Assembly: GCF_045679555.1 (NCBI RefSeq)
Contig: NC_092122.1
Coordinates: forward strand, 12,947,043-13,011,042
Length of the DNA: 64,000 bases
Direction of reading: 5' to 3'
DNA from: Salvelinus alpinus
Lineage: Eukaryota > Chordata > Actinopteri > Salmoniformes > Salmonidae
Shown here: one piece after another, positions 7,429-59,135 of the stretch
Numbering within the stretch: position 1 is the first letter of the stretch
Layout of the letters: the number at the start of each line of letters is the position of its first letter
The notes under the pieces: generated by a model
What the model was told of the DNA's origin: nothing
Databases searched by the model: none
What the model saw: the letters and a program-made list of their open reading frames with translations, nothing else
Program-made: the position numbers and the translations under genes

Positions 7429-10400
7429 ATGACGGAATCGACAATAACTAAACTTATTTGTGCTAATCGTGGATCAATGAACGTCGATGAATTAGATGCA
7501 AATTTTTACAGTGACTTGCAAGTCTCGGTGCGGGATGTAATTACGAATAGAGCGAAATTTTGTTTTGTTGTTTTTAACGGAGAGGAAAGGGTGGTAGCCA
7601 AGACTGGAGTTCGACTGTGCAAATCCAAAGATTGCCAGGGATGCCGAAATTTACATTTTTGTAAACGATTCATGCTTGGGGATTGCCCATTCAGTCGGAG
7701 AAGGTATGGAACTTCAACGCTTTCCAATTTTGTTACTGTTGTTACCGTGACGCTATTTTAATCACAAGGCCTGCTCTGGGGAACTTTTGGCACATAGCCT
7801 TTCCCTTTGCTTCATGGCAGGGATCATAATTACAAATCATTTGACTGCAAATTGACCGCAAGAATCCCAAACAGATATAATATTTCACTGAAACGTAATG
7901 ATTTCAAATCTTGCTTACATTTGTATACGATCAAGTCTCTCTATAATTATGCTTGGCAATAATTGTAACAGATTTCTCAAATTAAAATCACTTGCCGCTG
8001 ATCTCCTGTTGTTTTTAGTATTTTATGTCCAAATAAAAATTAACAAAAATATTCGTGTTTTTTTGCTCAGAAAACTTGGGGAGCAAATATAAAACAACCA
8101 TTGCTGCCAGTTGTGGAACCCTGCTTTATGGCGTTATTGGTGTATATTGAGAACCACCAGGGTTGTCAGGTGAAGATAATATTTTTAACCAATGACCCCT
8201 CAAAACCCGCGCACAAGGCCGGAGAACTATTCCCCCTTTTTTTCACAGCAAGAGAGGAGTTGCCACATTTATCCAATAAACCCTTTTTTCCATAACGTCA
8301 TCTAGCAGTTAGGAAGGAATATTGACATAATTTGTAACGACATAGGCTGAGGTTTTCCATCAAAATAATGATCCTTCTGAGCTTAAGAATATGTCGCAAG
8401 AGAAAAGATAATTCACCCTTGTTAAACATTTTCCATCAATGGATGTCGATTTAACTTATTTTGACTGCTATAATTAAGCAATAAGGCCCAAGGTGGTGTG
8501 GTATACAGTATGGCCAATATAGTACGGCTAATGGCTGTTCTTAGGACACAGCCCTTAGCTGTGGTATATTGGCCTACCACAAACCCCTGAGGTGCCTTAT
8601 TGCTATTATAAACTGGTTACCAGTGTAATTAGAACAGTAAAAATAAATGTTTTGTCATAACCGTGGTATACAGTCTGATATACCACAGCTGTCAGCCAAT
8701 CAGCATTCAGGACTAAATATATCCAGTTTGTGCATGTGCATAACTATAGATAAATCCGACAGGAGAGTTTGAGTGATGAAAGTTGGACAGAGGATCTCAA
8801 AATCTCTGTCCAATAAACACTATTTTCTGGCAATTGTGCCATTATTATGTGCCAGATGTTAAGACTACGAACTGTTATAAATGGCCTATTTGCGAGCTTG
8901 ACTTGTTATTTCAATAGGAATAGGCTATTGACTAAAATCAGTGTTTATAATTGCAATTCAACTTTGCCTTGGTTTGCTGAACTAGATGCAGGTAGCCCAT
9001 AGCCCCTGGTAGGCCAACATCTAAATTCAGGGAAAAGTCCTCAATGAAACTGACATTGAGCTGTGACCATGATTACAATTGATAACTTCCAATTTAATTA
9101 ACTAAACATTGCCATTAATAATTGCATAATAACATAAGGCTACAACAACAAACTGAAGTTATAGGCTATTTATTAAATACATTTGCCAGCTCCAGGTAGG
9201 CTACACAAGTGGCACAAATTGATATTGTGATTTCAACGTATTCATTGTATCAAATGGTAGGCTACAGTAGCCTACAATGGCATAGAAATGAATAGCCTAC
9301 TTGATGGCCAACATATGCAAATCTATCATTCTCCACATTTAATGTCACTTTTTCCCTATAACAGAAGCATGCGAGGGAATTCCAAAACTTCCATTTCAAA
9401 TTTCCACTTGTGCAGTGCTCGAGACCCAAAAACCCTTTGCTTGATTTGATTTTCCATAAGAAAAGTTGACATTAGAATGCAGTTTACTTTAAACCAACTA
9501 TCTAAAGCGCTCTAGTGTGCCTAAAGTATTTTTCCAATGCTTTGTATCCGTCATATCAGTTCTAGCACATTAATGTTTTATGGAAAAAGGTTTGGAAATA
9601 GGTGTTTCCATAATGACCAATCTAAATAGTCTACCTACAACTGGTAAAAAAGTTGTCTCCATGACTCAGCTGCATGCTGCAGCGCTCTGTCAACCAGTGC
9701 TCTCAACACACACAAGCACCCCTTCCCACCACTCACTCAGTAACAGCCTGCTCACTGCCTGATAGTCAGCAGCAGGTCACAGTGAAAGATCCACCATAGT
9801 TTTCCCACAGGGGATTTTAGAAACATTTAAAATAAGGGCTGTGTTCTATGTACGCTTACCCTGGTGTGACGTTTTGATAACTGTGTAAATCTCTCTAGGA
9901 TGACTTTTATCAATATATTCACCTACAGTTGAAATCGGAAGTTTACATACACTTAGGTTGGAGTCATTTCAACTCGTTTTTCAACCACTCCACAAATTTC
10001 TTGTTAACAAACTATAGTTTTGGCAAGTTGGTTAGGACATCTACTTTGTTCATGACACAAGTAATTTTTCCAATAATTGTTTACAGACAGATTATTTCAT
10101 TTATAATTCACTGTATCACAATTCCAGAGGGTCAGAAGTTTACATACACTAAATTGACTGTGCCTTTAAACAGCTTGGAAAATTCCAGAAAATGTCATGG
10201 CTATAGAAGCTTCTGATAGGCTAATTGACATCATTTGAGTCAATTGGAGGTGTACCTGTGGATGTATTTCAAGGCCTACCTTCAAACTCAGTGCCCCTTT
10301 GCTTGACGTCATGGGAAAAGCAATTTCCAAATGCCTGAAGGTACCACGTTCATCTGTACAAACAATAGTACGCAAGTATAAACACCATGGGACCACGCAG

Positions 10401-13400
10401 TCGTCATACCACTCAGGAAGGAGACGCGTTCTGTCTCCTAGAGATGAACGTACTTTGGTGCGAAAAGTGCAAATCAATCCCAGAACAACAGCAAAGGACC
10501 TTGTGAATATGCTGGAGGAAACAGACAGAAACGTATCTATATCGACAGTAAAACAAGTCCTATATCGATATAACCTGAAAGGCAGCTCAGCAAGGAAAAA
10601 GCCACTGCTCCAAAACTGCCATAAAAAAGCCAGAGTACAGTTTGCAACAGCACATGGGGACAAAGATACTACTTTTTGGAGAAATGTCCTCTGGTCTGAT
10701 TAAACAAAAATGGAACTGTTTGGCCATAATGACCATCGTTATGTTTGGAGGAAAAAGGGGGAGGCTTGCAAGCCGAAGAACACCATCCCAACCGTGAAGC
10801 ACGCGGGTGGCAGCATCATGTTGTGGGGGTGCTTTGCTGCAGGAGGGACTGGTGCACTTCACAAAATAGATGGCATCATGAGGAATTAAAATTATGTGGA
10901 TATATTTGAAGCAACATCTCAAGACATCAGTCAGGAAGTTAAAGCTTGGTCGCAAATGGGTCTTCCAAATCGACAATGACCCCAAGCATACTTCCAAAGT
11001 TGTGGCAAAATTGCTTAAGGACAACAAAGTCAAGGTATTGGAGTGGCCATCACAAAGCCCTGGCGTCAATCCTATAAAAAATATGTGGCCAGAACTGAAA
11101 AAGCTTGTGCGAGCAAGGAGGCCTACAAACCTGACTCAGTTACACCAGCTCTGTCAGGAGGAATGGTCCAAAATGCACCCAACTTATTTTGGGAAGCTTG
11201 TGGAAGGCTACCCGAAACATTTGACCCAAGTTAAACAATTTAAAGGCAATGCTACCAAATACTAATTGAGTGTATGTAAACTTCTGACCCACTGGGAATG
11301 TGATGAAAGAAATAAAAGCTGAAATAAATCATTCTCTATACTATTATTCTGACATTTCACATTCTTAAAATAAAGTGGTGATCCTAACTGACCTAAGACA
11401 GGGAATGTTTACAAGGATTAAATGTCAGAAATTGTGAAACTGAGTTTAAATGTATTTGGCTAAGGTGTATGTAAACTTCTGACTTCAACTGTATATTTAC
11501 CCCCCCAAAATTAAATGCTAATTAGTTGCTAATGTGGCTATCATAAAGAACTACAAATGCCATGATGATCTAGACGAGACTACCGAATCGAGGCAAAGGT
11601 AGTTAATTCAGAGATTCTTATCTAATGTTAGCTAAATTTACTAAAGAATAAATTGACTACATTTCTTTAAATTTACAGTTCTATGAACTGTCTTGTCTAA
11701 GTTTTAAATGGACACAATACCTGTTCGCAAAGGCGTCAACTAGAGATGATGTGCAGGAGTTTGCTGTGATTTGTAGTCTTGCATGATGTCTACTTTGATG
11801 CTAATTAGCATTTTTGAATATGAGAGTAAATAGAGCCGAATATATTGATAGAAGTCACCTTCTCCTAGAGAGATTTACATGGTTATCAAAACGTTATCCC
11901 AGGGTAAGCGACACAAAACACAGCCCTTATTTTAAGTGTTTCTAAAATTCCATATGGGAAAAATTTAATGTTGGAAAATGATTGGAACCATTTTCCTGTT
12001 TGACCGCTAGGTTTTTGGGGGGAATTATGACACCTCCACTGTGGAGCTCTATTAGGTATTTACATTTAGATAACATGTTGTGCCTAACCCAGGCAAAAAA
12101 TATAATCTGTAGCCTACTTTCTGTAGTCTACTTTTAGGGTAAAGTGAAGAGAAAAAAATAAATAACTGGTGATGGGTGGTGGCACTTTGATTTTGCACGG
12201 ATAGTACTTTAAAAACGTACATTTTGTGAATAAAGTCAAAATTACATTTTGAGAGTAAAGTGGCAATATTTTGAGAATAGTCACATTCTGACCTTTATTT
12301 CCTTTGTTTTGTCTTTATTTAGTATGGTCAGGGCGTGAGTTGGGGTGGGCAGTTTATGTGTGTTTTTCTATGTTGGGGTTTTGAGTTCGGCCTGGTATGG
12401 TTCTCAATCAGAGGCAGCTGTCAATCGTTGTCCCTGATTGAGAATCATACTTAGGTAGCCTGGGTTTCACTTTTGGTTTGTGGGTGTTTGTTTCCGTGTT
12501 AGTGTTGGTCGCCACACGGTACTGTTTCGGTTTCGTTCGTTTCACGTTTATTGTTTTGTATTTTGTAGTGTTCAGTTTATGTCTGAAAATAAACATTATG
12601 GACACTTACCACGCTGCGCATTGGTCCTCCGATCCTTCTCGTTTCTCCTCATCACAAGAGGAGGACGACAGCCGTTACAAGAATAAACTCGCAGTTGTAT
12701 TAATTTCATGCCTCCATGGCTCCCTGTTGCTGTGCGTGCCACCTTAGTAGATGACTGTTAATTAAAATTATACTTTAGAATTGGCTTTAGTAACAAGGAA
12801 ATCCTTGCTATTTTAGTATATAATAACCTAAAAATTAGGACCTGGAAGCGGTTTTGCCACAGATTGGGTCTTTTCAAAAGGAGGAACCACACAGACTAAT
12901 CTGTGTGTCTACATACAGTGCCTTCAGAAAGTATTCATACCCCTTGACTTATTCCACATTTTGTTGTGTTACATCCTGAATTCAAAATGATATACAAAAA
13001 TAATAATTATCACCAATCTACACACAATACCCCATAATGACAAAGTGAAAACATGATTTTAGAAATGTATTTAAGTATTCACACCTCTGAGTCTCTAAGA
13101 GCTTTCCACACCTCGGAGTCTCTAAGAGCTTTCCACACCTCGGAGTCTCTAAGAGCTTTCCACACCTCGGAGTCTCTAAGAGCTTTCCACACCTCGGAGT
13201 CTCTAAGAGCTTTCCACACCTCGGAGTCTCTAAGAGCTTTCCACACCTCGGAGTCTCTAAGAGCTTTCCACACCTCGGAGTCTCTAAGAGCTTTCCACAC
13301 CTCGGAGTCTCTAAGAGCTTTCCACACCTCGGAGTCTCTAAGAGCTTTCCACACCTCGGAGTCTCTAAGAGCTTTCCACACCTCGGAGTCTCTAAGAGCT

Positions 13401-16400
13401 TTCCACACCTCGGAGTCTCTAAGAGCTTTCCACACCTCGGAGTCTCTAAGAGCTTTCCACACCTCGGAGTCTCTAAGAGCTTTCCACACCTCGGAGTCTC
13501 TAAGAGCTTTCCACACCTCGGAGTCTCTAAGAGCTTTCCACACCTCGGAGTCTCTAAGAGCTTTCCACACCTCGGAGTCTCTAAGAGCTTTCCACACCTC
13601 GGAGTCTCTAAGAGCTTTCCACACCGGGATTGTGCAACATTTGCGTATTGTTCTTTTCAAAATTCTTCAAGCTCTGTCAAATTGGTTGTTGATCATTGCT
13701 AGACAACCATTTTCAGGTCTTGCCATAGATTTTCAAGTAGATTCAAGTCAAAACTGTAACCTTGGCCTCTGCACGCCTATGTAGATATTCCATAAAAAAA
13801 TCTGCCGTTTCCAGCTACAATAGAAGAAGGCGCTGTTGCGCCTTCTTCACCACACTGTCTGTGTGGGTGGACCATTTCAGTTTGTCAGTGATGTGTATGC
13901 CAAAGAACTTGAAGCTCTCCATCTTCTCCACTGTGTTCCCATCGATGTGGATAGGGGGTGCTCCTTCTGCTGTTTCCTGAAGTCCACGATCAGCTCCTTT
14001 GTTTTATTGATGTTGGGTGAGAGGTTACGCACCCTTGTGGGGCCCCTGTGTTGAGGATCAGCGAAGTGGAGGTATTTTTTCCTACCTTCACCCCCTGGTG
14101 GCGGCCTGTCAGGAAGTCCACGACCCAGTTGCACAGGGCGGGGTTCAGACGCAGGGCCCAAAGCTTAATGATGAGCTTGAAGGGTACTATGGTGTTGAAT
14201 GCTGAGCTGTAGTCAATGAACAGCATTCTTACATAGGTATTCCTCTTATCCAGATGGGATAGGGCAATGTGCAGTGCAAGGGCGATTGCATCGTCTGTGG
14301 ATCTATTGGGGCGGTAAGCAAATTGAAGTGGGTCTAGGGTGTCAGGTAGGGTGGTATGATCCTTGACTAGTCTCTCAAAGCATTTCATGATGACAGAAGT
14401 GAGTGCTACGGGGTGATAGTCATTTAGTTCAGTTGCCTTTGTTTTCTTGGGAACAGGAACAATGGTGGACATCTTGAAGCGTGTGGGGACAGCAGACTGG
14501 GATAGGGAGAGATTGAATATGTCTGTAAACACTCCAGTCAGCTGGTCTGCGCATGCTCTGAGGACGCGGCTAGAGATGCAGTCTGGGCCGGCAGCCTTGC
14601 GAGAGTTATCAAGTTTAAATGTCTTACTCACGTCAACCACGGAGAAGGAGATTGGTAGCTGGCTGTGTCAGTGGCACTGTGTTATCCTCAAAGTGGGCAA
14701 AAAATGTGTTTAGCTTATCCGGAAGCAAGACGTCGGTGCTCCCGACGTGGCTGGTTTTCCCATTGTAGTCCGTGATTGTTTGTAGACCGTGCCACATACA
14801 TCTCATGTCTGAGCCATTGAATTGCGACTCCACTTTGTCTCTGTACTGATGTTTTGCCTGTTTGATTCCCTTGTGGAGGGAATAATTACACTGTATCTGG
14901 CCATATTCCAAGTCACCTTGCCATGGTTAAATGCGGTGGTTCGTGCGTTCATTTTTGCGCAAATGTTGCCATCTATCCACGGTTTCTGGTTTGGGTTGGT
15001 TTTAATAGTCACAGTGGGTACAACTAGGTTTGCACATTTTGGGGAATATTCAGAGGTGGAAACTTTCCTTGGGAATATATGAGAAATAATGGAAATATAT
15101 GCAAATGAATATTAAATCCATTTAAATGTAGATTTTTTTGCATTGGATATGTTTACCATATCATATGGAAACTGAAACATCAACCTTTTACCTTATCATA
15201 AGTTGACATAATTGCAAATGATAAAATACTTGCAATAGAAATAAAAAAACTATTTAGTTATGAATTGAACTTTAATTAAATGAGTTGACTCTTCACATGG
15301 GATGATTTCACTGAACAACAAAAGAAAGGGAATTTTGAATGATCCCCAATGAGCCATCGCATCTCCCAAAAACATTTTCAACATACATCTGTAAAATGAT
15401 AGCCTAGAAACTAAAGCTTTGGTTGTCATCCTCTCAGGCTTCCATGTCTTCTCCCTGGACCTCCTCAATGTCCACCTATTGAACATCAGACTCTGAGGCC
15501 TCATCTTCACTGTCACTTTCCAACCTTGTTGAGGATAGCTCGTTGTCAGGCACAAAAAGCCTCAAATTTGCCCGGATGGCCACCAATTTTTCAACCCTGT
15601 ATTGGTCAGCCTGTTGCGTGCTTTAGTGTGTGTGTTTGCAAACAAGGACCAGTTGCGCTCTGAGGCAGCTGATGTTGGTGGGATTTGGAGGATGATGGAG
15701 GCAACAGGGGAAAGAGCCTCAGATCCACAAAGTCCCTTCCACCAGGTGGCTGATAATATATGTTGGCACGACTGCCATATTGCATCTCCATCCCAAAGCC
15801 CTTGCTTGGAAGTGTACTTCGCCAGACTGCCAAGAACCTTGCCCTCATCCAGGCCAAGGTGGCGAGACACAGTAGTGATGACACCATAGGCCTTGTTGAT
15901 CTCTGCACCAGACAGGATGCTCTTGCCAGCAAACTTGGGGTCCAACGTGTACGCTGCGGCATGTATGGGCTTCAGGCAGAAGTCTTCACACTTTTTGATG
16001 TATTTCAGAACTGCAGTTTATTCTGCTTGGTGCAACAGTGAATTGGGCAGGACAGTATGGATTTCTTCTCTTACATCTGCAAGCAGAGTCTGAACATCAG
16101 ACAGGATGTTCTAAAAGAAATGTGAGTTAAGAAATGTGAGTTAATGTCTAGATGCTTTTTAGAGTGGAGATCAAGTTTATAAATTACCTGGCTGGGCTGA
16201 TGAGACAGCAGATTGCGCAGTCAAATGGAACACAGTAAATAGCCGGTGTTAACTTGTGTAATAGACACCGGCTAGAATGCGGTTTTAACCAAATCAGCAT
16301 TCGGGATTAGACCCACCCGTTGTATAATCAACTATAAATGTCTTCTTATGTAATCACTGAAAGTGTGCGTGCTCAAAATAGCATGCAAAGGTTGCAGGTC

Positions 16401-19400
16401 TGTGAAGGTGATAACACATAAAATAGATGCATAAATACAACATATCTGATATTGTATTCCCAATTGAAATTTGTTGTGGTTTTAAATGGTTGAAAGCGCA
16501 GTGATAACACATTTAGATGATGTCCCGCTGGTATGAAGAGATTCGGGAGACAGGCGCAGGAATGCGTCATAGGGTTTTTTCTTGTAAAAGGTGTTGTCAA
16601 GCAGTTGTCTATGACACTGTTGATGGAATTTATATGTTTAAATTAATGATTAGAATATTCCACCCTGAAACCATATAATTGTATGAAATTGATTAGAATC
16701 ATAAAATTATTATTAATGATGTGTGTAGTTTTAGTCAGTAAAATTCTAATAAATGATGTGTGTAGTTTTAGTCAGAATTAGGGTAAAACAATATATCTGT
16801 ACAATATGTCTCTAAAGTATCTTAAACAAAGACAGTCTGAGCAAAATTCGGTGCCGACCTTGGCCAGGGGCCACTGAGAGATTTGGGATGCCATCCTGTG
16901 GAGGGCTTGGTTCAAATCCTGTATGGGAGAGCAAAGGGTAGCTGTAGATCAGTAGAGGTAGGAGATGCTGCCAAGTCTATTGTTTTTTTCTGATATTGGA
17001 TATAACGTTGAAGATCTGACGTTGTTTCAAAGATACAAATTCAACATATTTTAGATGAGCTTTGTCTATGTTGAAATGTCACCTTCAAAACTTTTTTCAA
17101 ATCAAATGTACACTCAGTGTACAAAACATATTTCCATGACATAGACTGACAAGGTGAATCCAGGTGAAAGCTATGATCCCTTATTTATGTCACTTGTTAA
17201 ATCCACTTCAATTAGTGTAGATGAAGGGGAGGAGACAGGTTAAAAAATGATTTTTAAGCCTCGAGACAATTGAGACATGGATTGTGTATGTGTGACATTC
17301 AGAGGGTGAATGGGCTAGACAAAATATTTGAGTGGCTTTGAACGGAGAAAGGTAGTAGGTGCCAGGTGCACCGGTTTGAATGTCTCAAGAACTGCAATGC
17401 TGCTGTGTTTTTCACACTCAACCCTTTCCCTTGTTTATCAAGAATGGTCCACTGCCTCCCGAGTGGCGCAGCGGTCTAAGGCACTGCATCTCAATTCTTG
17501 AGGTGTCACTACAGATCCGGGTTCGATCCCAGGCTCTGTCACAACCGGCCGTGACCGAGAGTCCCATAGGGCGGCGCACAATTGGCCCAGCGTTGTCCGG
17601 GTTAGGGGAGGGTTTGGCCGGGCGCTCTAGCGACTCTTTGTGGCGGGTCGAGTTTCTGCAGGCTGACTTCGGTCGTCAGTTGAACAGTGTTTCCTCCGAC
17701 ACATTGGTGTGCGACTGACTTCCAGGTTAAGCGGGCAGGTGTTAAGGAACGCGGTTTGGTGAGTCATGTTGCGGAGGATGCATGACTCGACTTTCGCCTC
17801 TCCCGAGCCCGTTGGGGAGTTGCAGCGATGAGACAAAATCGTAATTGGATCACAATTGGAAAAAGGAGGTTAAAAAAAAGAAAAAAAGAATGGTCCAAGA
17901 CACAAAAGGACATCCAGCCAACTTGACACAAGTGTGGGAATCATGGGGGTCAACATGGGCCAGCATCCCTGTGGAACGCTTTCGACACCTTGTAGAGTCC
18001 ATGCCCTGACGAATTGAGGCTGTACTGAGAGCAAAAGGGGTTGCAACTCAATATTTGGAAGGTGTTCCTAATATTTTGTACACTGAGTGTTTTTCCCACA
18101 TAGATTTCACGTTACAATACATTGACAAATAACGTTGATTCAACCAGTTTGTGCCTAATGTGATGGAAGGTTGTATCAAGAAAATGTTTACTTTTGACTA
18201 CAGAGGAGGATGTCGCTTCAACCATGAAATGACCTCGGGGGAGAACAGCAGAATCCTGAAAGAACACGGACTGGAGGAACTGAACAGACCTGAGCTGTGC
18301 ACCCTGCTGCTTCAGAATGATGGCTTCCTCTTACCACCAGTATGTAACACTGCAGTAGGCCCCTTTGCTAAAGTATGCTCTGTCTGGTTAAGGCCTTGTG
18401 TATGATCTAAATTAAGTTCATGTTCCTCCAATCTTGTGCTGTGGTGTGCAGAAATATACATGGAATATCCCAGAATATTGTGTGTGTGTACTCATACATG
18501 TATGGGTGTGTGTGCATGCATGTGTGTTTGTGTGTATTGTTTTCTCGTACAAACATTTGCCTTCTGCTAGGTGTGCCACAACTACAACAACGGCGTTGGA
18601 GAGTATGGCAAATGCCAGGATGGCGAGACATGCAAGAGGCTCCACATCTGTGAGATGTATCTCAGGGGTAGCTGCAACTGTCCCAGGTGTCATGATTTCT
18701 ACGAACCCCACCCATTAAAAATCCTGCAGGACAGAGGGGTGCCCAACGAGCTCATTGCCTCCCTGAAGTCTGTGTACATGAACATCGAGTGGTTGCAAAA
18801 GCAAGACCGTGCCATGCAAGGCAAGGGGCAACATCAAAGAGCTAAAGCTAATGCAACCACTAACACAAGTAACAAGTCTAACAGAGGCCCACTTACTCAC
18901 GGTAAGGCCGACACTGTTATTAGCATGTTAACTCATAAGTTATTAAATAATATTGTGTTATACCTTAATATAGTTTTACTAAAGTGTGAAGATGGTAAAG
19001 TGAGTTTGTTTAATTTATGAGAACATAGCATTTAGTGGAACCTAATGCTACTTCCTAATATCTTGTAGGAGTTAGAAGAAATAGTGTGTGATTATAGATG
19101 CATTCTCATAACTGCAACCCACCTCTCACATGACCTGGGCCCACTTTGGGTCCCGACTCATGATTTAAGATACCCTGGGCTACAGTATAGGCTACTAAAT
19201 AAAATGTCCAGTGACACTGGCTTACCCAATGATAAAGATGCATTCATGTGTAGATAGATAGTAAGGTGTGTGTATAGATATATATGTGTGTAGATAGTAA
19301 GGTGTGTATAGATATATATGTGTGTAGATAGTAAGGTGTGTATATAGATATATATGTGTGTAGATAGTAAGGTGTGTATATAGATATATATGTGTGTAGA

Positions 19401-22400
19401 TAGTAAGGTGTGTGTGTGTATATAGATATATATGTGTGTAGATAGTAAGGTGTGTGTGTATATAGATATATATGTGTATAGATAGTAAGGTGTGTGTATA
19501 TAGATATATATGTGTATAGATAGTAAGGTGTGTGTGTGTATAGATATATATGTGTATAGATAGTAAGGTGTGTGTGTGTATATAGATATATATGTGTATA
19601 GATAGTAAGGTGTGTGTGTGTATATAGATATATATGTGTATAGATAGTAAGGTGTGTGTGTGTATATAGATATATATGTGTATAGATAGTAAGGTGTGTG
19701 TATATAGATATATATGTGTATAGATAGTAAGGTGTGTGTATATAGATATATATGTGTATAGATAGTAAGGTGTGTGTATAGATATATATGTGTGTAGATA
19801 GTAAGGTGTGTGTATAGATATATATGTGTGTAGATAGTAAGGTGTGTATAGATATATATGTGTGTAGATAGTAAGGTGTGTATATAGATATATATGTGTG
19901 TAGATAGTAAGGTGTGTATCTAGATATATATGTGTATAGATAGTAAGGTGTGTGTGTGTGTATATAGATATATATGTGTGTAGATAGTAAGGTGTGTGTA
20001 TATAGATATATATGTGTATAGATAGTAAGGTGTGTGTATAGATATATATGTGTATAGATAGTAAGGTGTGTGTGTGTATATAGATATATATGTGTATAGA
20101 TAGTAAGGTGTGTGTGTGTATATAGATATATATGTGTATAGATAGTAAGGTGTGTGTGTATAGATATATATGTGTATAGATAGTAAGGTGTGTGTGTATA
20201 GATATATATGTGTATAGATAGTAAGGTGTGTGTATATAGATATATATGTGTATAGATAGTAAGGTGTGTGTATATAGATATATATGTGTATAGATAGTAA
20301 GGTGTGTATATAGATATATATGTGTATAGATAGTAAGGTAGGTGTGTATAGATATATATATATGTATAGATAGTAAGGTGTGTATATAGAAATATATGTG
20401 TGTAGATAGTAGTAGTCCCGTGTGGCTCAGTTGGTAGAGCATGGCGCTTGCAACGCCAGGGTTGTGGGTTCATTCCCCACGGGGGGACCAGGATGAATAT
20501 GTATGAACTTTCCAATTTGTAAGTCGCTCTGGATAAGAGCGTCTGCTAAATGACTTAAATGTAAATGTAAATGAATGATAAAGCATGAATATACGTAGGC
20601 TACTCACCGGTGATGGCCGATTCGCATGAGCCAATCAAAATAACTGCTCTTTGCTTAATATTGGCAGGTGTTGAGAAACCATTTGGTAGCTTCTGCAGAC
20701 AGATTAGTCTTCTCTTTCCAGCAAGAGGCATTTGCTTTTCAAACTACATTTTTCCCACGATTGTATTTAGACATTTACAAAAGGCCTATAGCTGACAACC
20801 GCAATGATAGAAATAGAATCCATAGAACGGTTGTGTCCATTGAAGTCAGGACTGGCAGGCATCTTGAGTGTACTCATGAGTTTACCAGTCAAATTGCCAG
20901 GGTTAGAGGTTCCAAGACCCTTCCATGGATTATATTTCTATGGCCACAACGCAACAAGCAGTTCGATATTTGGCGCGCTTGCTGCCCAAATTGCGGCTCT
21001 CTGTTGTATTATTTTGAATGCTTTTATAAATCTGTACAGACAGGAGTAGGCTAATTATATAATTTTGGAAAATATATTTACATTTAGGTGCTGCAGAAAC
21101 TCCAGCACCCCTATTTCCCGCTCCTATGCTCGCCAGACTCAGGGCGCTCCACCTCCAAGAGGTTGAGCATGATACTGCTACTCCTGCTGCCACCGCTGCC
21201 CTTAACACAAGCCAGAGGTCCAACAGACCTAGTCAAGGTAATGGCAATACTGCACGTAGCATGGTGGTCATGCAGTCATAGGATAGCCCATCATTGATGT
21301 TAAGAATCAACACGTAGGTTAATTGTGGATTTCTTGTTTAAAATAACATTTAGCAGAAACTATTTTATGTGCTCAGTTACAGTGTATTTGTATGGTTATT
21401 AACTGGTATTAAGATCCGATGAGTGATGAACATTAAGAACGTTCCCAGTCACAAGCTATGAAAATGTATAGATGTTGTTTCTATTGGCATGGTAAATTAA
21501 ATGTCCAGTTCTCTTTTTCAGATAAATCTGAAATATGTATGTACTTCATCAAGGGCAGTTGCATACACGGTGGTAAGACAGCATTTTGCAAAGCATCATT
21601 TTATGAATAATCAATGCTTAGAGCTTAATAAACATAAGACTTCAACACCTAACTTTACTCATATTTCAGATAAGTGCTTTAAAGCCCACTCTACCATGCC
21701 CTACCAATGGGAGGTGAGGGAGGGACTAAACTGGACAGCTCTACAAGACAACGAGGTGATTGAGAAGGACTATTGCGACCCAGCAAAGACATACAGGTGG
21801 GCTCTACGTTTAAGAAGAATGAACTTGAATGGACAGTAACACGTAGGGCTCTTGGTCCATGGTGGGCAAATGTTGCTAGTTGCTAATACAATGAGTTATT
21901 AATGCCATATACACTTCTAGTTAGTGTGATATACAGCTTCCCCTATTGTGATTGCTGATTGTTCACTGTCTTTTATTCTTTCTTGTCTAGTCGGGGAGTC
22001 CAGCCTGTGTGTTTCGATACGATGACCTGCGGTCTGAACAAAGCCCGGCGTCTCTCCACCGTCTCCTCTGTGCTACAGCCTACCTTCATCCTCACCACGG
22101 AGTGGGCCTGGTTCTGGGAGGACGAGTTTGGAAACTGGATCCAGTACGCATCAGCAGTGAGTGACGACGAGCACTGTTGAATAGTGATGGTTGAATAGGA
22201 CAGAGTTCAGTACCTCTTTAAATAGAAAATTATGCAAATAATGCATAACCTCCATGTTTTCTGTCTTGCCCTACAGATCAGTGGACACAGGGCAGCTACC
22301 ATCACCAGTGAAGACCTGGAGAAGAGGTTCCAGGAAGACAACAAGGCTGTGATAGAGTTCACCGCGGGGTCACAGACCTATGAACTCAGTTTCCCTGGTG

Positions 22401-25400
22401 AGCACAGATGACGTGATATCCAAGATAAACCAACTGCAACCTTAAAACCATATACACCAAAAATTGTATATTACGAACAGATATGCAGTGATTCTTACAG
22501 CTACTATTGTATGTGACAAATTTAGATAATTCTCGATGGAGTCACTATGGTAAAACAATGACATCTGCATGTGAAGTGAACTGGCTGTTGTTACAACAGC
22601 TCTGCTCCTTTTCAGACATGATTCAAAATAACAAGCAGTACAGCACCAAGAAGGTTGTGAGAAGACGGCCTGTGTTTGTCTCTTCAGCTGATGCACAAAC
22701 TATCAAAACCAGGTAAGATGAAGCTGTGAATGTTTTTTGTATGAATCAATTTGCTCTTGAAATGACTCTCCTGGGGATTGTTCACTCATTTCACCACTAG
22801 GCTCCTCGTGTGTTCTCTTGCCTTGAAAGTAGTCTATAGAAGAGGAGTAGCTGACCAGGTGCACGTTTTGATTTTTGCCGTAGCACTATAGCCTCGTACG
22901 AACCATCCTGATGACGCAAGCTTACATTCTGTTTCGCAACACGGATACAGTCTGGCAACGACCAGATTCAAACCATTTGAGCACATCCCTCTCCCTCCAC
23001 CGTACAGCCGGACCAATCAGCGCCCTCTGATAATCTGTGGGGGTGATTTAGTTGATGATGACAACGAGAAGTGCCTGGAGGTTGGTGTTGATGCTGCTAT
23101 AGCAGCAGTTATATAAGAACTGGAGGGAATAGCTTATTTGAAAGAACAGCAAAAAAACTGCATTGAAGGCTTTTCTTGGGGGAGAAGATGTTTTATCGCT
23201 CTTCTCCCGACTGGATTCGGCAAGAGCTTGATTTACCAGCTAGCTCCGCTGGTAGGCTGGACAAGAGAATAAGTAAATATTCACCCGAGGCTGAAAAATA
23301 GCCAAAGGAACATTGGCTGAGCTGGAACACCAGCGCGAGGCCATAGCAAATGAATTGAAACAAACCTTCACTGAGCCTCTTCTGACTGAAGTTGTCTCGC
23401 CCTGATTTGTTTCACTTGTCCTTGTGATTGTCTCCACGCCCCTCCAGGTGTCGCCCATCTTCCCCTGTGTATTTATACTTGTGTTTGTCTGTGTCCGTTG
23501 CCAGTTTGTCAAGCCAACCAGCGTTTTTGTGTCAGCTCCTGCTTTTCCCATCCTCCTGGTTTTTGATCATTGCTTGTCCTGACCCCGTATGACCACTCTG
23601 CCTGACCCTGAGCCCGCCTGCCGTCCTGTACCTTTGCCCCACCTCTGGATTACCAACCTCTGCCTGACCTGACCCTGAGCCTGCCTACCATTCTGTACCT
23701 TTGCCCCTGCTGCTGTAATAAACATTGTTACTTTGACACAGTCTGCATCTGGGTCTTACCATGATCCTTGATAGAAGTGATACTTAGAATTCCATTTCCC
23801 CTAAATGGCACCAAAAGAAGTATCCCTTTTTATTGTATAAATATTATTTTATAAATAACTCAGTGGTGTCAAGTGTGCTTACATCTGCGCAATGAGCAAG
23901 TATAGAAAAGTTGCAACTTCTGACTTTTTCTGGTCTAGCGATCGATGACAGCAGAGCTCGCTGCCCAGACTTGCATCATTAAAAAGAGATTCTCCTGATT
24001 AAAAATGGTGTCCAACGTGAAAAAAATCTAAATATACACATTGTGAGATATTTGGCGAAATAGACAGACATGTCCTTGTAGAATTTCCCCATAGCGAAAC
24101 AATGGAGCAGCAGCCTCAACAGTAATGTGTAATTTCTGACATTTTAAAGACTAGCGTTTGATGACAGCAGAGCTCGCTACCCAGCCTTACATCATTAGAG
24201 GAGATTATAGTGATTTATTATGGTGTCAGACTTGAAAATAATCAATATATACATTTTGTAGATATCTGGCGAAATAGACATCCCTATTTCCCCTATAGGA
24301 AACAATGGGACGAGCGCTGAAGTTTTAACTTCAAGCAATTGAGCACAGCATAATACTCTACCCAAACGTATGTACATCATTAGAAAGAATAAATTATCTT
24401 GATTAAAATGCTGTAGAACTTCAAAACATCAGAAGACATAAATATATTGATATTTGGTGAAATAGATTTCCCAAAAAAAATGGCAGTTAAAAAATTCTAA
24501 GAGCAGTTTTTTATTATTCAGGTTACTATTTATCTGCAACCATTTGCCTTTTTTATTTGTCTTTTTGTTTTGTTTTACATTTTGTGGTTGAACTAGGCCT
24601 CTGTGCTAGACAACCAAATGTCTCTTTGCATTTATCTTTAGTGTCACGGCCATTTAAAGGAGTGGACCAAGGTGCAGCGCGATTGGAATATATATTTTTA
24701 TTCCACGAAGAACACTTAACGAACGAAACGTGAAGCCAACGTAGTGCTCACAGGCAACTAAACATGGACAACTACCCACCAAACCAAGATGGAAAATGGC
24801 AACCTAAATAGGCTCCCCAATCAGAGACAACGATAAACAGCTGTCTATGATTGGGAACCTACTCAGGCCACCATAAACCTACAACCCCTAGACAATACAA
24901 AATCCCCATAGATAACAAAAAACCCTAGGCAAGACAAAAAGACAAAAAGACAAAAACTAAACAAACCACCCCTTGTCACACCCTGACCTAACCAAATAAT
25001 AAAGAAAGCAAATATAACTAAAGTCAGGGCGTGACATTTAGGAATATTTATTGTTCTTCTACATTTCAGAAAAAGGGCTCCGAGCAATCACTCAAATTTC
25101 AGAGCTTTACCAGGACACTGGGACAAGGCACAAACTCCTGAAACAGGATACAAGGTATTATATTATATACAGTACATGCAAGGATGCAAGGAACCTGCTG
25201 TTTTAGACCAATGGAGATGACTGTTTGTTTTGTTCCTGGGCAAATAACTGCTCCAATATGTCCCTACATGGTAGGCTAATGGTGTATAATGACTGTTTCT
25301 CTGTCTCCCATCATGTCCCTATCAGAGAGTCGACCTTCCGTGCTCGTCAGTGGAGTTTAAGGAGATTCAAGGGCTTTTTCAGAACACCATGAGAGGCTTC

Positions 25401-26824
25401 AGCATCCACCAAATCGAGAGGATTCAGAACAAAGCCCTTTGGGAAGTCTTTCAGTGGTACGTTCCCTAAGACTACATACACTTTCAATTGACAATCACCT
25501 ATTGATTGGTCTAGAATAGATGTTTTATTTTTGATTTTTTTACCTTTATTTAACTAGGTAAGCCAGTTAAGAACAAATTCTTATTTACAATGACAGCCTA
25601 GCCAAACCCGGATGACGCTGGGCCAATTGTGCGCCGCCTTATGGGACTCCCAATCACAGCCGGATGTGATACAGCCTGATGCTCACTTCCTGACTGCACC
25701 CACAATAATTGCACATTATACAATATTTCTCTCTCTCGACTAACTTTCTGTCACAAATATAATCTCAAAAGGAAATACAAATAATTTATTTTCAATACAT
25801 TCTGCACACATACATACACTGATTGCAAGGCAAAGAGATGTATTTGTAATATTCTGATTGCAAGGCAAAGGGATTTATTTGTGTAATTCTGATTGCAAGG
25901 CAAAGGGATTTATTTGTGTAATTCTGATTGCAAGGCAAAGGGATCTCATGAAGAAGAACAACAGAGGGAGGAATGTGACAGAGAAACAGCTTTTCCATGG
26001 CACAGACTCCAAATACCTCGATGCCATCTGCCTTAACAACTTTGACTGGCGGATCTGTGGACTAAACGGAACAGCCTATGGGAAAGGTGAGCCATCTCAT
26101 GTGCTTGTGCTATTACATGTCATTCTAATTATTGACATAAATTAAGATGATATATCGTTGATATAATATATTTTCCTGTGATGAATGATTACTGCTTACC
26201 CCTTCATCCCCCTAACATCCAATTTCAGGGAGTTACTTTGCCAGGGATGCCAAATACTCCAACAGCTACACTGGCCAATTAAATACGAGGTCCATGTTTG
26301 TCTGTCGTGTGTTGGTGGGAGATTACATCAAAGGGCACTCGAGCTACCTCCGGCCCCCCTCGAAGGACGGAGGGGACACCATCTTCTACGACAGCTGTGT
26401 GGATGACGTCAGCAACCCCTCCATCTTTGTGGTGTTTGAGAAGCACCAGGTGTACCCAGAGTACCTCATCCATTATGGTGAGGACGAGGCATGGCCACAA
26501 GTCTACCAGCAATACTACAGTCCAGCTCCTGTACCTGCTCCTGCTCCAGCACCAGCATACAGACCAGCTCCTGTACCTGCTCCTGCTCCAGCACCAGCAT
26601 ACAGACCAGCGGCTGCCACAGCGCCTAGACCAGCACCAGCATACAGACCAGCGGCTGCCACAGCGCCTAGACCAGCACCAGCATACAGACCAGCGGCTGC
26701 CACAGCGCCTAGACCAGCACCAGCATACAGACCAGCGCCTAGACCAGCACCAGCATACACACCAAACCTAACCCCTGCACCAACCCCTGCACCTAAACCT
26801 GACAACTCCTGTGTCATTAGTTGA
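7429..26824 (+). CDS. parp12: PARP12-like CCCH zinc-finger mono-ADP-ribosyltransferase (13 coding exons)
   Basis: Joining 7429-7703, 18204-18339, 18571-18901, 21088-21237, 21522-21572, 21670-21796, 21991-22156, 22277-22397, 22616-22712, 25070-25154, 25326-25456, 25935-26086 and 26229-26824 at GT/AG sites keeps phase and gives 805 residues. CCCH fingers occupy about residues 64-184, and a C-x7-C-x5-C-x3-H finger lies at 303-321. WWE domains follow (about 322-460), then the PARP catalytic domain (about 490-690) with H578 (LFHGT), Y610 (YGKGSYF) and I673 (NPSIFVVF): the H-Y-I triad of active mono-ADP-ribosyltransferases. The tail holds 14-residue Pro/Ala repeats and ends CVIS, a prenylation (CaaX) box as in ZAP/PARP13. 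The catalytic and WWE sequences resemble PARP12 most, hence the symbol. In mammals PARP12 and ZAP are interferon-induced antiviral proteins that bind RNA. An ISRE lies upstream. Confidence 0.88.
8478..8735. repeat. Palindromic MITE in intron 1 (GGTATATTGGCC family)
   Basis: The arms GGCCAATATAGTACGGCTAA and TTAGCTGTGGTATATTGGCC are inverted copies, as are GTGGTATACAGT and ACCACAGCTGTCAGCC further right. The element has no open frame. It sits in parp12-like intron 1; the intron sequence from 7704 to 8477 and from 8736 to 9812 shows nothing further that I can name. Confidence 0.6.
9926..11491 (+). mobile_element. Tc1-like DNA transposon, nearly full length, TA target duplication
   Basis: The element starts CAGTTGAAATCGGAAGTTTA and ends with the inverse TAAACTTCTGACTTCAACTG, each flanked by TA (9924-9925 and 11492-11493), the signature of Tc1/mariner insertion. 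Inner copies of the GTATGTAAACTTCTGAC and GTCAGAAGTTTACATAC motif mark long inverted repeats. It lies in parp12-like intron 1 and carries a broken transposase. Confidence 0.92.
10299..11265 (+). pseudogene. Tc1 transposase, inactivated
   Basis: The N-terminal half ([15 protein letters not shown]...) has the paired helix-turn-helix DNA-binding region, and the piece from about 10894 encodes the C-terminal catalytic part, including [17 protein letters not shown]. The frame is interrupted by a stop at 10701-10703 immediately after WRNVLWSD (a substitution at the usual DE position), a second stop near 10886 and at least one frameshift before 10894. It cannot make a complete transposase. Confidence 0.9.
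12279..12679 (+). mobile_element. Solo LTR with 5-bp target duplication AGAAT
   Basis: A 401-base block ending CCGTTACA is flanked by AGAAT on both sides (12274-12278 and 12680-12684). It contains a polyadenylation signal (AATAAA near 12588) and lies in parp12-like intron 1. Parts (AATCAGAGGCAGCTGTCAATCG and the following text) match, in reverse, the LTR at 24642-25036, so both belong to related families. The first base of the usual TG start is mutated to A. No internal region is present, so it is a recombination remnant. Confidence 0.7.
12916..13802 (+). mobile_element. Tc1-like element fragment carrying a minisatellite
   Basis: The left end CAGTGCCTTCAGAAAGTATT after a TA resembles the inverted-repeat end of a Tc1-like family common in salmonids. 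After the 27-bp array (13080-13624) the sequence resumes with internal text of the same element (ATTCTTCAAGCTCTGTCAAA, then GTTGATCATTGCTAGACAAC). The right end is missing: the element is cut at about 13803, where a LINE fragment begins. Confidence 0.65.
13080..13624 (+). repeat. 27-bp minisatellite, about 20 copies
   Basis: Units of 27 bases (CACACCTCGGAGTC + TCTAAGAGCTTTC) repeat about 20 times with almost no variation; only the first copy differs (CTCTGAG for CTCGGAG). Because 27 is divisible by 3 the array is open in several frames and yields artefactual peptides of period nine. The near identity points to recent amplification. It lies inside a Tc1-like fragment within parp12-like intron 1. 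Confidence 0.97.
13823..15025 (-). pseudogene. L2-like LINE fragment, reverse transcriptase remnant
   Basis: Minus-strand frames encode reverse-transcriptase blocks closely matching the intact LINE at 42874-45747: [42 protein letters not shown], then, after an internal deletion removing the FADD region, [14 protein letters not shown]. There are frameshifts near 14640 and 14030. Both ends are truncated; the 3' untranslated region is absent. It lies in parp12-like intron 1, opposite to the gene. Confidence 0.9.
15051..16110 (-). pseudogene. hAT transposon fragment with transposase C-terminus
   Basis: The block starts with CAGAGGTGGAAACTTTCC, a hAT-type terminal sequence. On the minus strand, 15562-15962 encodes a hAT dimerisation-domain signature ([20 protein letters not shown] followed by [12 protein letters not shown]). 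The frame is broken (two overlapping frames are needed) and the far end cannot be found. From 16111 to 17110 there is AT-rich intron DNA with small duplications near 16700-16770 but no gene. Confidence 0.75.
17111..18089. mobile_element. Non-autonomous Tc1/mariner-type element with a nested SINE
   Basis: Inverted ends CACTCAGTGTACAAAACAT and ATTTTGTACACTGAGTG bound the block. The interior has fragments like GGACATCCAGCCAACTTGAC but no open transposase. A SINE is inserted inside (17452-17886). It ends about 115 bases before parp12-like coding exon 2. Confidence 0.75.
17452..17886 (+). mobile_element. tRNA-derived SINE with 11-bp target duplication
   Basis: The head (GAGTGGCGCAGCGGTCTAAG ... 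GGTTCGATCCC) carries RNA polymerase III A- and B-box motifs of a tRNA-derived promoter. The insertion is flanked by AGAATGGTCCA (17441-17451 and 17887-17897), and ends in an A-rich tail. Another SINE of this family, reversed, lies at 25534-25678. Confidence 0.85.
19249..20408. repeat. TAGATAGTAAGGTGTG minisatellite, about 1.16 kb, intron 3
   Basis: Some 32 units of 32-42 bases share TAGATAGTAAGGTGTG and TAGATATATATGTG, with length variation caused by a (GT)n run and an optional TATA. It fills much of parp12-like intron 3. The long minus-strand open frames across it are artefacts of the repeat. Confidence 0.97.
20413..20573 (+). mobile_element. HpaI/SmaI-type salmonid SINE
   Basis: The head (GTGTGGCTCAGTTGGTAGAG ... 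GGTTCATTCCCC) resembles a tRNA-Lys with recognisable A and B boxes. The 3' tail (AAGTCGCTCTGGATAAGAGC, GTCTGCTAAATGACTTAAAT, then ATGTAAATG repeats) is the LINE-derived tail of this SINE group. The same tail, in reverse, ends the LINE at 27287. It abuts the minisatellite. Confidence 0.92.
23105..23256 (+). pseudogene. Helicase-like fragment with a Walker A motif
   Basis: One frame reads [15 protein letters not shown] and then [20 protein letters not shown]. The GFGKS P-loop and its setting resemble RecQ-type DNA helicases, fragments of which are spread through fish genomes by repeats. No start, no further helicase motifs and no open continuation are visible. It lies in parp12-like intron 9 and is not spliced into the gene. 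Confidence 0.5.
23395..23775 (+). repeat. LTR-like dispersed repeat
   Basis: The text contains two diverged copies of CTGACCCTGAGCC(C/T)GCCT(G/A)CC followed by TTCTGTACCTTTGCCCC-like sequence, then AATAAACATTGTTACTT and CTGCATCTGGGTCTTACC. I recognise this ending from common fish LTR-type repeats. No target duplication was found, so its limits are approximate. Confidence 0.5.
23905..24475. repeat. Three diverged tandem units of about 190 bases
   Basis: Three successive blocks share GATGACAGCAGAGCTCGCT, (A)CATCATTA(A/G)A, a T-rich AAATG(G/C)TGT stretch, GATAT(T/C)TGGCGAAATAGAC and a CCC(C/T)ATAG(C/G)(G/A)AA(A)CAATGG run. The third copy is most diverged. This is an old tandem duplication inside parp12-like intron 9; no coding potential. 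Confidence 0.6.
24642..25036 (-). mobile_element. Solo LTR with 5-bp target duplication TTTAG
   Basis: A 395-base block starts TGTCACG and ends CGTGACA. It is flanked by TTTAG on both sides (24637-24641 and 25037-25041). Read on the minus strand it resembles the LTR at 12279-12679. It ends only 33 bases upstream of parp12-like coding exon 10, so it lies close to that exon's splice acceptor and branch region. Confidence 0.75.
25534..25678 (-). mobile_element. tRNA-SINE fragment (reverse)
   Basis: Reading on the minus strand gives GGGAGTCCCATAAGGCGGCG, GCGTCATCCGGG, then TTGTAAATAAGAATTTGTTC and TAGTTAAATAAAGG, the body and LINE-type tail of the SINE family seen at 17452-17886. The tRNA-like head is missing, so it is 5' truncated. 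It lies in parp12-like intron 11. Confidence 0.7.
25819..25958 (+). repeat. 35-bp tandem repeat of a splice acceptor, four copies
   Basis: Three full 35-base units (25819-25853, 25854-25888, 25889-25923) and a fourth partial one starting at 25924 each contain CTGATTGCAAG|GCAAAG(G/A)GAT. In the fourth the AG|G is the acceptor of parp12-like coding exon 12 (first base 25935). The unit spans the end of intron 11 and the first bases of the exon, so the whole 3' splice site has been multiplied. Copies 2 and 3 are identical. Confidence 0.9.
26521..26751 (+). repeat. In-frame 42-bp coding minisatellite
   Basis: Within the last parp12-like exon, two 42-base units encoding [14 protein letters not shown] are followed by three nearly identical units encoding [14 protein letters not shown] and a shortened one ([10 protein letters not shown]). 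The period is a multiple of three, so copy number can change without a frameshift. The tract forms an extended linker between the catalytic domain and the CVIS end. Confidence 0.95.
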
Positions 26825-32491: not shown

Positions 32492-35017
32492 ATGGCACGA
32501 CGTTTCTCAATGTTCTACGGTAGTTGGAGTCTACTACCTATCGGGAGTAGGTCACAAGGTACGGGCTTTGACTGAATGCATATGGTGGAAAGTAGATACT
32601 GAAACAAGCCAATGGGCTGGTTATTTTTCCCTGATCACAGGACCTGTTTTAAACTTTCCATATTACTGATCCGCTATAGGGCTTTGAGTTTTCCCTCTTC
32701 CTGATCACATGGCCAGGAAGAAATTCTGACCATAATCAGCAGTAGCATCACTGCAATTTACACCACACACTTTGCATTGATCAATATGGACACAAGCACA
32801 GGAGGCTGCTGAGTGAATGGAATGGCATCAAACACATGGAAACCATATATTTACCATATATTTGATGTATTTGATACCATTCCACTAACTCTGCTCCAGC
32901 AATTACCATGAGCCGGTCCACCCCAAATTAAGGTGCCAACAACCTCCTGTGAGACATAATACATTATTATTACTTAACTGTCTGGATATAATTGAGGCAT
33001 GCAGCTATGTTCTGATCATATTGATGCCCATAGGCCTAAGAGGTCTGCTGAACTATGGCCTGTCATGCTGTGTGAACGCTCTGCTGCAGTCCTTCTCTGC
33101 CACCTGGGAACTGGTAGATCTTCTAGAAGGGTAAGCCAGGTGCCAGGTTACAATACTTCGCTATTAAGAATCAACATGTAACAAAGACATTAGTTAGCTT
33201 ACTGGTAGTTATCAGGCTGCTTGTGGGAAAGCATTGAGTGCTTGGAATGTTATGTTCTTAGGTGGAACCCAGTTGACAAGGAGAGTGTCCCTCTGTATCT
33301 GAGGAAGGTGCTACTAGCCATGCAGAGTGACCAATCCCAGCCTGCTCCTCATAAAGACTTCCTGCACTGCCTGGACAGAAATTACATCCGCAGTATGAGT
33401 AGTCTACGTGTCATTACATGGAGAATAAAGCAACGACAATTATGAATTACAAAGAATATCATTTTTCTGTCTGCAACTTTAACATTGACAAGAATGTGTT
33501 TCTCAGACCATGTTCAGCAGGATGCAGATGAGGTATTCCTCTCCATTTTAAACCTCATCCAACAACAGATGAGTGACAAGGCCTTGGTATGTACTACTTA
33601 AATTGACATAATATTAGATCAACTAATAAAGAACAACAGGGACACCCAACAAAAAGCATGTTGGAGATGATACGATAGGAAGCTTCTCTGTCTGTGTTCT
33701 CCATCCCCAGGCTCAGGAGATTCACTCTCTGTACAAGGTTACCATGGAGACATACCTTCAGTGTCTAGAATGTAAATACATCGAAACTGGGACCAGCTTT
33801 CTACTCAGCCTCCCCATGCACATAAGGGAGAGCCATGACTCCCTGGTGAGGGTTCCCTCAAACTTGGCTCAAGTTCTCTCTAATATTGGGATTCTATTCA
33901 AAGTACTTAGCCCTGAATGTTATATTGCTCTATTTGATAGCTGTCAAAGGGAGGATGTGGTTTGTTAAAATTGAGTCTGTGTCTTTCCTATTCTGTGGTC
34001 TTCCAGGAGGACTGCATACGGTTTTTCTTCGAGCTTCAGGAGCTACGGGATGGAGATAAGTGCTACTGTGAAAGGTGTGGAGAGAAGACGCCATCCAAAC
34101 AGGTCAGTTCTTTCTAACTGAAGGGATGTTCCATTGTAGAGACTGTTGTGATTTGCCTCTTCACTGAATTACTCCATTTTGTTCTTTCTTATGCAGGGCT
34201 TCAAACTCATCTCCCTGCCCCCTGTCTTGTGTCTTCACCTGAAGAGATTCCGACATTCCCATGGTTACACCAGGAAACTACACCTCAAAGTCACCTTCCC
34301 AGAAACCCTGAACATTTCTGAGATCTTGACAGCAGGGGCACTGTCAGAACGTTATGTACAGGTAGATAGGCATATGTTTACAATTTTTGTTTGAGGTATG
34401 CTAATATACAACATTATGCACATAAAACAATTACACATGGGCCTATATAAACACAATTACATTTGATCACACATCATTGGAGGGAAATAGTACAGCTGTA
34501 CTGACAGACATCAAATTGTATTTGTTCATTCTTTCAGAGTGACAGCCAGTACAGTTTGTGTGCAGTCATAGTGCACTCCGGCGATGCCATGTTTGGACAC
34601 TACACAGCATACGTTCGTCACAAGGACCAGAGCTGGTACTACGCTAATGATCGTTATGTACGGCAGGTAAGAGAAAATGAGTGGAAGAATGTTTACACCA
34701 CTCAGCAAGTTTGTATTATACCTATACGTTTTTTTGGTATCATTAAAAGTAACATAACATTTGCACAAACACAGGTTAGCTGGAAGGAAGTACAGAACAC
34801 CTATGGAGGAAGTCTGAGGTAAGGTTTTAACACAAAATTACTTCTCTTTAGAATGGCGACAACTCTCAGTATTATCCTCGATCAATTCTGGGGGGGGAAA
34901 TGGCATCAGTTGACAGGTGTCTTATCCTTTGTTAACAGAGAGACAGCATATATGCTGCTCTACAGACGAACCCCAGAGGGAAAGCAACAGGAGTGGTCCT
35001 CAGGCCGACGGAGCTAA
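32492..35017 (+). CDS. usp18: ISG15-specific ubiquitin-like protease USP18 (10 coding exons)
   Basis: Exons 32492-32558, 33034-33130, 33262-33392, 33507-33586, 33711-33845, 34007-34102, 34197-34361, 34538-34666, 34775-34818 and 34939-35017 join in phase to 340 residues (human about 372). USP fold marks: catalytic Cys at about 34 in NYGLSCCVN, His278 in MFGHYTAYV, and N294/D295 in YANDRYV. Cys pairs CLEC (143/146) and CERC (191/194) form the zinc-binding finger. USP18 removes ISG15 from proteins and dampens type I interferon receptor signalling. The start was chosen because exon 1 ends CAAG|GTACGG in the required phase; a non-coding exon ending AAA|GTAAGT (32262) and an acceptor at 32430 probably precede it. 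The N-terminal extension is shorter than in human. The start codon is the least certain part. Confidence 0.9.
32797..32952. repeat. Palindromic MITE, copy 2, in usp18 intron
   Basis: CACAGGAGGCTGCTGAG at the left and AACCTCCTGTG at the right are inverted ends, with GGAATGGCATCAAACACATG and ATACCATTCCA arms between them. It is the same family as 6801-6939 and 57730-57903 and lies between the first and second coding exons of usp18. Confidence 0.75.
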
Positions 35018-42734: not shown

Positions 42735-42873
42735 ATGGTCGCTGTCACGTACCTTTGAATGCTTCGGCCCCCAAAAAAACATTCCCTCAGTGAAAGTTCT
42801 GTGTCAACCATGAGAAGCTTCCTACTTCTGAGGCTGAGAAATATTGGGCTTAACCTGATGTCACACAGGAAGA

Positions 42874-58373: not shown

Positions 58374-59135
58374 TGACTCACTCCTGAGTGTATGGAAGGG
58401 ACAGAGTAGGCCAATGTTCTCGGAGAGATGCTGGTTACAAGATAGAGACACAAGCTGATGGACGTTAGAGAGAGAGCGGGAGAGAGAGATAGAGGGATAG
58501 TTGTATATAGGAGGGGCTGAGAGAAGGTTGGATAGAGCCACTGACTCAGGTCTGTGTTCAAGACCGAAGACTGAACCCAGAAGTGCTTACTGTCTCAACG
58601 TTGTCTTCTTAAATGTTGCCATTGGGCTTTGTATAAGAGCTTTCAGTTTCACTGAGAATCTCTCAATGCACAATGTGGGAAACACCCCTCTTTTTCCTGT
58701 TCTGAATGTATAGTTTTTTCCATTCATTTCTCTCTAGCTCGTCTGAGACTAAATTTAACTGTTTATGCATGTCTGCATAGACTACGTCTGTGTGTCTGTC
58801 TATGTTTTCTATGTAAATCTTTTATTATCTTCCCTCAGTCTTCAACAGGACTCAAATTGAAAGGAATGACTTAGGCTGCAGTCAGGCCAACCCACATGCC
58901 TTTTGCTCTCTATGGTTTTTATTCTGTGCCAGGTCAGCTTTTCCGCATTCACTGGCTTCTTCATAGGTTTACTTTGCTTTGGAGAAGAACCTTAGGAGTG
59001 ATGGGAGTCTCTGATGTAAAATGCCGACTACCCTACACATACATAACTCTATTGAGTGTGTTAACCCCATTACCACACACAAACCTTGAAGCTGTGCTAG
59101 TCATGTCCATTACCCAATATCTGTAATGTAATTAT

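Follow-up and report, generated by a model that had tools for sequence, protein, structure and literature searches.

A tandemly repeated splice acceptor before exon 12 of a PARP12-like gene in Salvelinus alpinus

The PARP12-Like Gene and Its Protein

The stretch of Salvelinus alpinus DNA analyzed here (contig NC_092122.1, positions 12,947,043 to 13,011,042; 64,000 nucleotides, hereafter the window) harbors a PARP12-like gene in which the splice acceptor of exon 12 lies within a tandem array of 35-bp units, several of which carry a similar acceptor. The gene model is intact: its 13 exons join into one frame of 805 amino acids (aa), and a pseudogene reading was rejected on these grounds. The gene and the exons around the array are as follows, with positions counted from the first letter of the window:

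7429-26824, forward strand: PARP12-like gene model, 13 exons, 805 aa, with a CCCH finger region, two WWE matches, a PARP domain, a Pro/Ala tail and a CVIS end
25326-25456, forward strand: exon 11, ending in ALWEVFQ plus TG, with the donor TG|gtacgt; aligned to PARP12
25935-26086, forward strand: exon 12, encoding the central PARP domain including QLFHGT, with a purine-rich start containing GAAGAAGAAC
26229-26824, forward strand: exon 13, encoding the remaining PARP domain, a Pro/Ala-rich repeat tail and the CaaX-type end DNSCVIS, then a stop

Pfam (PF25261, PF23466, PF02825, and PF00644) identifies, within one protein, a CCCH finger region of PARP12 type together with two WWE matches and a PARP domain; the PARP match (residues 521-690) begins in exons before exon 12. 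Against solved structures, the catalytic part scores 249.1 bits with PARP12 (2pqf), and 122.6 and 117.3 bits with ZAP (4x52 and 2x5y, respectively). The top structure for the WWE part is from ZAP (7kzh, 136 bits), as is that for the finger part (6uei, 119 bits), although PARP12 structures of those parts are perhaps not in the set. Judged by these alignments, the catalytic domain is nearer to PARP12 than to ZAP. The active-site residues, H 578 and Y 610, were assigned by eye from the PARP12 alignment. A tblastn search of the window for a second PARP12-like gene found none: all 12 hits (E up to 0.01) fall on the exons of the model itself.

The protein terminates in DNSCVIS and a stop (26801-26824), which gives it a C-terminal CaaX box, a feature by which ZAP (ZC3HAV1) is recognized; in human ZAP-L, CVIS is described as the farnesylated CaaX box (PMC8568172). 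According to a 2025 study, the CaaX box was gained in tetrapods (PMC12204182); CVIS on a fish PARP12-like protein could either be convergent or point to an earlier origin of the box. The Pro/Ala-rich tail that follows the PARP domain and precedes CVIS is encoded by a 42-bp tandem repeat (26546-26740 by Tandem Repeats Finder, TRF; noted at 26546-26782), which, unlike the 35-bp array, keeps the frame.

A 35-bp Array Across the Exon 12 Acceptor

TRF reports the array with a period of 35, 3.6 copies, 94% matches and a score of 217. Each unit combines 25 nt from the end of intron 11, spelled TTATTTGTGTAATTCTGATTGCAAG, with 10 nt from the start of exon 12, spelled GCAAAGGGAT. The array and its copies are:

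25819-25944, forward strand: 35-bp tandem array, 3.6 copies, straddling the boundary of intron 11 and exon 12 (TRF score 217)
25819-25839, forward strand: copy 1; AGs open at 25830, 25836 and 25838 (scores -2.11, -5.4 and -9.77); TGA stops
25840-25874, forward strand: unit 2; AGs open at 25865 (score 0.58) and 25871; TAA at 25884
25875-25909, forward strand: unit 3; AGs open at 25900 (score 0.58) and 25906; TAA at 25919; candidate branch point A 25877
25910-25944, forward strand: unit 4; functional acceptor 25935, with 25941 as an alternative that shortens the exon by 6 nt; candidate branch point A 25912

The core of the unit, CTGATTGCAAGGCAAAGGGAT, has four matches in the 64 kb at up to three mismatches, all of them inside the array, and a chance origin was rejected because the same pattern occurred in none of 100 shuffles. 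These results bear out the original prediction that a 35-bp unit is repeated in tandem across the end of intron 11 and the start of exon 12, and they confirm its four CAAG|GCAAAG(G/A)GAT junctions, which open at 25830, 25865, 25900, and 25935. Its start for the array (25819) also holds, while its end (25958) is 14 nt too far: those last nucleotides are unique exon, and the array stops at 25944. The acceptor is multiplied four times, as was proposed, in that there are four junctions; the copies are not equal, however. Aligned in the phase that puts the intron end before the exon start, units 3 and 4 match at all 35 nt, and unit 2 departs from them at 4 of 35 positions, all within its first 14 nt (the intronic left part). 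Copy 1 retains only a 21-nt core with one mismatch, beside a left flank unrelated to those of the other copies, and its acceptor score is low. In each copy, a second AG (CAAAG|) lies 6 nt downstream of the first, and copy 1 has a third, for nine AGs in total. The array has two marks of a junction duplication of the type found in human CBS (see below): a unit that spans the splice site with both intron and exon sequence, and more than one copy that retains the splice dinucleotide and its local context.

The window is rich in repeats, with 21 merged tandem arrays of period at least 10 that cover 5672 bases. When 21 arrays were placed at random (20,000 trials), one of the gene's 12 acceptors was covered in 42.8% of trials, and some splice boundary in 55%; coverage of an acceptor fell to 18.4% with the 18 arrays of up to 300 bp, and to 10.9% with the 16 arrays of up to 150 bp. 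Special targeting of the splice site is therefore unneeded, and the landing of an array on an acceptor, for which random placement gives a frequency of 11-43% according to the array sizes included, can be regarded as an ordinary accident. A comparison of the array unit and the protein with viral contigs gave no exact match; three stretches fit the peptide pattern, and none was confirmed as a relative.

Predicted Products of the Array Acceptors

Joined to the exon 11 donor (25456), only two of the nine AGs are productive: 25935, which yields the 805-aa protein, and 25941, which yields 803 aa. All seven AGs upstream in the array lead instead to stops after 556-565 aa, for which the earlier label of poison acceptors is apt. 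The peptides and stops first read from these copies were likewise recovered: W-Q-R-D-L-F-V followed by TAA for copies 2 and 3, and TGA for copy 1, where the stops for 25836 and 25838 arise across the junction. The accompanying claim that the last acceptor alone is productive stands for the upstream AGs with this donor, but overlooks 25941.

Each of the seven upstream AGs leads to a stop that precedes the next and last junction, at the end of exon 12, by 165-250 nt. A premature stop more than 50-55 nt upstream of a junction predicts nonsense-mediated decay, and all seven sites, with donor 25456, come under this rule. Because the stops lie so far before the junction, decay of the upstream-acceptor messages is likelier than a stable short protein. 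Both outcomes had been put forward for this locus, and the one predicted by these distances is decay, while a stable isoform resembling ZAP-S is not supported. If translated, a predicted truncated product would retain no more than the initial third of the Pfam PARP match (cut after residue 556) and would lack H 578, Y 610, and the CVIS end. Truncation would hence cost the protein its prenylation signal and the greater part of its PARP domain; the original prediction of a lost ADP-ribosyltransferase domain is upheld for that part, which includes both active-site residues, but not for the third or less that is kept.

Other pairings were considered by combining the seven GT sites in 25400-25559 with eight of the AGs. 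Among these 56 donor-acceptor pairs, eight remain open to the CVIS end, four of them via 25935 or 25941. The other four join donors 25445 (GAA|gtcttt) or 25460 (TAC|gttccc) to 25900 or 25906, giving proteins of 811-818 aa (6-13 residues longer); in-frame use of upstream copies through these weak-looking donors is not favored. Skipping of exon 12 or retention of intron 11 likewise truncates the protein.

Local Signals at the Competing Acceptors

Acceptors were scored over 15 nt with a crude position matrix. The CAAG sites of copies 2, 3, and 4 each score 0.58, with the 14 intron nt adjoining the junction common to all three; copy 4 therefore has no advantage in the 15 nt scored. The CAAAG sites score from -3.9 to -5.4. 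At 0.58, the functional acceptor is the lowest of the gene's 12, the next scoring 1.62 and the other ten 4.34-10.95. A candidate branch point (yTnAy) lies 23 nt upstream of copies 3 and 4, in each case 3' of the AGs of the preceding copy.

Masking of the upstream copies by RNA structure was considered and rejected, as pairing of the AGs is alike among copies: across three folded spans, the four CAAG sites have a mean probability of being unpaired of 0.36-0.41 at -6 to +2, which does not separate them. At -20 to -1, it is 0.37-0.47, except for copy 1, which reaches 0.62 in the largest span (against 0.42-0.46 for the other copies); such an open tract would, if anything, favor copy 1.

Interpretation and Alternatives

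We interpret the array as a young minisatellite through which some splicing leaks into messages that are decayed, and put the chance of this at slightly better than even. It would have arisen in this fish PARP12-like gene when the acceptor of exon 12, with 25 nt of intron and 10 nt of exon, was duplicated in tandem; copies 2 and 3 would then take a minor to moderate share of the spliceosome's choices, and the resulting messages would be cleared by nonsense-mediated decay. Copy 4, probably aided by the purine-rich start of exon 12, would yield the full-length protein. The net effect may be a modest loss of output that scales with copy number, with no programmed isoform.

Several observations weigh against this interpretation. 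Among 1058 other intronic AGs in the gene, 264 (copies 2 and 3 included) equal or exceed the score of the functional site, and two AGs in intron 11, 25660 and 25558, outscore it. The acceptor of copy 1 scores low (-2.11), and no branch point candidate lies 23 nt from that of copy 2, whose yTnAy candidate is 43 nt away. Moreover, of 12 purine-rich enhancer hexamers, nine occur in the first 60 nt of exon 12, and none in the 105-nt extension that use of the upstream copies would add; this contrast may hold splicing at copy 4. In the human CBS allele 844ins68, finally, the distal of two duplicated sites is reported to be strongly favored, and normal mRNA is made (PMC2630376); upstream use here may therefore be negligible. 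A large reporter library in human cells, by contrast, is described as showing no first-site preference among tandem acceptors of equal strength (PMC6783452). Taken together, these two systems would bracket the expectation for the fish array, from shared use to none.

The strongest alternative, a realistic one that we nonetheless consider somewhat improbable, is that the array is silent: the last acceptor alone would be used, and the extra copies would be inert, as in CBS 844ins68. That allele is the nearest precedent (52 intron and 16 exon nt duplicated), and both the preference for its distal site and the enhancer-like purines placed beside copy 4 but not in the extension agree with a silent array, as does the intact frame of the rest of the gene. 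However, copies 2 and 3 match copy 4 throughout the 14 intron nt next to the junction, and unit 3 equals unit 4 over its full length and has its own candidate branch point. In addition, silencing of the CBS 3' splice site is ascribed to G runs in the title of a paper in a reference list, and the array unit has only GGG.

The leaking minisatellite could also be extended to a variable-number repeat that sets dose like a dial, with a further share of splicing diverted to decay by every additional unit; we regard this as unlikely. Were it true, copy number would set the amount of membrane-directed (CVIS-ended) antiviral PARP in an individual, and interferon-driven shifts in splicing factors or in decay could alter the diverted share.

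An assembly error, with fewer copies in the real genome, would fit the identity of units 3 and 4 over 35 nt. It appears a little less probable still, given that the 126-bp array is short enough to be spanned by one ordinary read, and that the 4 differences in unit 2 and the distinct left flank of copy 1 are not those of stutters of their neighbors. Least probable is a regulated truncated isoform of 556-565 aa. In its favor, the parts it would lack (CVIS and the greater share of the PARP domain) are those by which ZAP-L and ZAP-S differ; zc3hav1 is listed among the genes induced by trout IFNA2 in one salmonid cell line (PMC6612602), and parp12 is described as an interferon-stimulated gene that is higher in certain cells of a virus-resistant trout line (PMC12648952), although neither need be the present gene. 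Against it, the distance of the stops from the last junction predicts decay, and the identity of units 3 and 4 suggests a recent origin rather than a long-kept function.

The locus is a test, provided by nature, of spliceosome choice between locally alike acceptors that differ mainly in their order and in the exon behind them. Should copy number vary among fish, it would provide an allele series for acceptor choice in a type of gene linked to antiviral defense. For annotation, a truncated frame in such genes could be mistaken for a pseudogene, which calls for caution.

Other Features of the Window

Pieces of a USP18-like gene, another gene of interferon type, lie downstream of the PARP12-like gene (32889-34822). 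The sole PDB match, to USP18 (E 0.00069), comes from two joined open reading frame pieces that have no Pfam family, and a third open reading frame among the pieces has a Pfam UCH domain. At the right end of the window, an open reading frame with a cyclin N-terminal domain (63508-63798) is cyclin D-like by eye.

Repeats and mobile elements account for further features. Intron 1 contains transposase pieces of the Tc1/Sleeping Beauty type (10239-11262), and intron 3 has a 38-bp minisatellite of about 30 copies (19254-20411), followed by what is by eye a tRNA-like short interspersed element. Large tandem arrays at 13080-13625 (0.5 kb) and 59135-61782 (2.6 kb) have open frames in several phases. 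A 962-aa open frame (42859-45747) resembling a long interspersed element has a reverse transcriptase domain and no internal stop; its endonuclease match is just below the cut-off, and Pfam also reports ALKBH8_N.

Comparison With Known Systems

Arrangements of this kind are already known from human CBS, in which one allele duplicates an acceptor and a separate repeat lies at a junction; within the literature searched, the number of acceptor copies and the host gene are new. In CBS c.844_845ins68, a near-tandem copy of an intron end and exon start likewise creates two similar 3' splice sites (PMC7490669, PMC2630376); the sites are worded as donor in PMC2630376, and as 3' splice site in PMC7490669 and in the title of a cited paper. 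That allele has one extra 68-bp copy (52 intron and 16 exon nt), in contrast to approximately three extra 35-bp copies (25 and 10) in the fish, and measured splicing is reported to use mainly its last copy, the use of the fish copies being predicted from sequence.

The CBS 31-bp repeat, c.1444_1467+7(16_21), has a unit that, by its name, also spans an exon-intron junction; it is polymorphic among people, with 16-21 copies (PMC2630376), and the title of a report cited there ties it to reduced CBS activity. It differs from the fish array in lying on the donor side and in copy number, the fish array having 3.6 copies on the acceptor side. The competing AGs near one exon start also recall NAGNAG and other close tandem acceptors (PMC1449888), and each fish copy has a pair of AGs 6 nt apart. 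Choices among such acceptors, however, shift a single site by a few nucleotides, whereas in the fish the entire acceptor region is repeated, and the frame is lost with most choices.

The human ZC3HAV1 pair, ZAP-L and ZAP-S, offers a looser likeness. ZAP-S is made by intronic polyadenylation, a different processing choice, and one which escapes decay. As in the predicted fish truncation, the short human form loses the PARP domain and the CVIS end (PMC8568172), and to that extent the parallel first drawn between the two holds. It is inexact in that the fish catalytic domain is PARP12-like, and that ZAP proper is placed in tetrapods by one source (PMC8102003), and in tetrapods and lungfish by another (PMC12204182).

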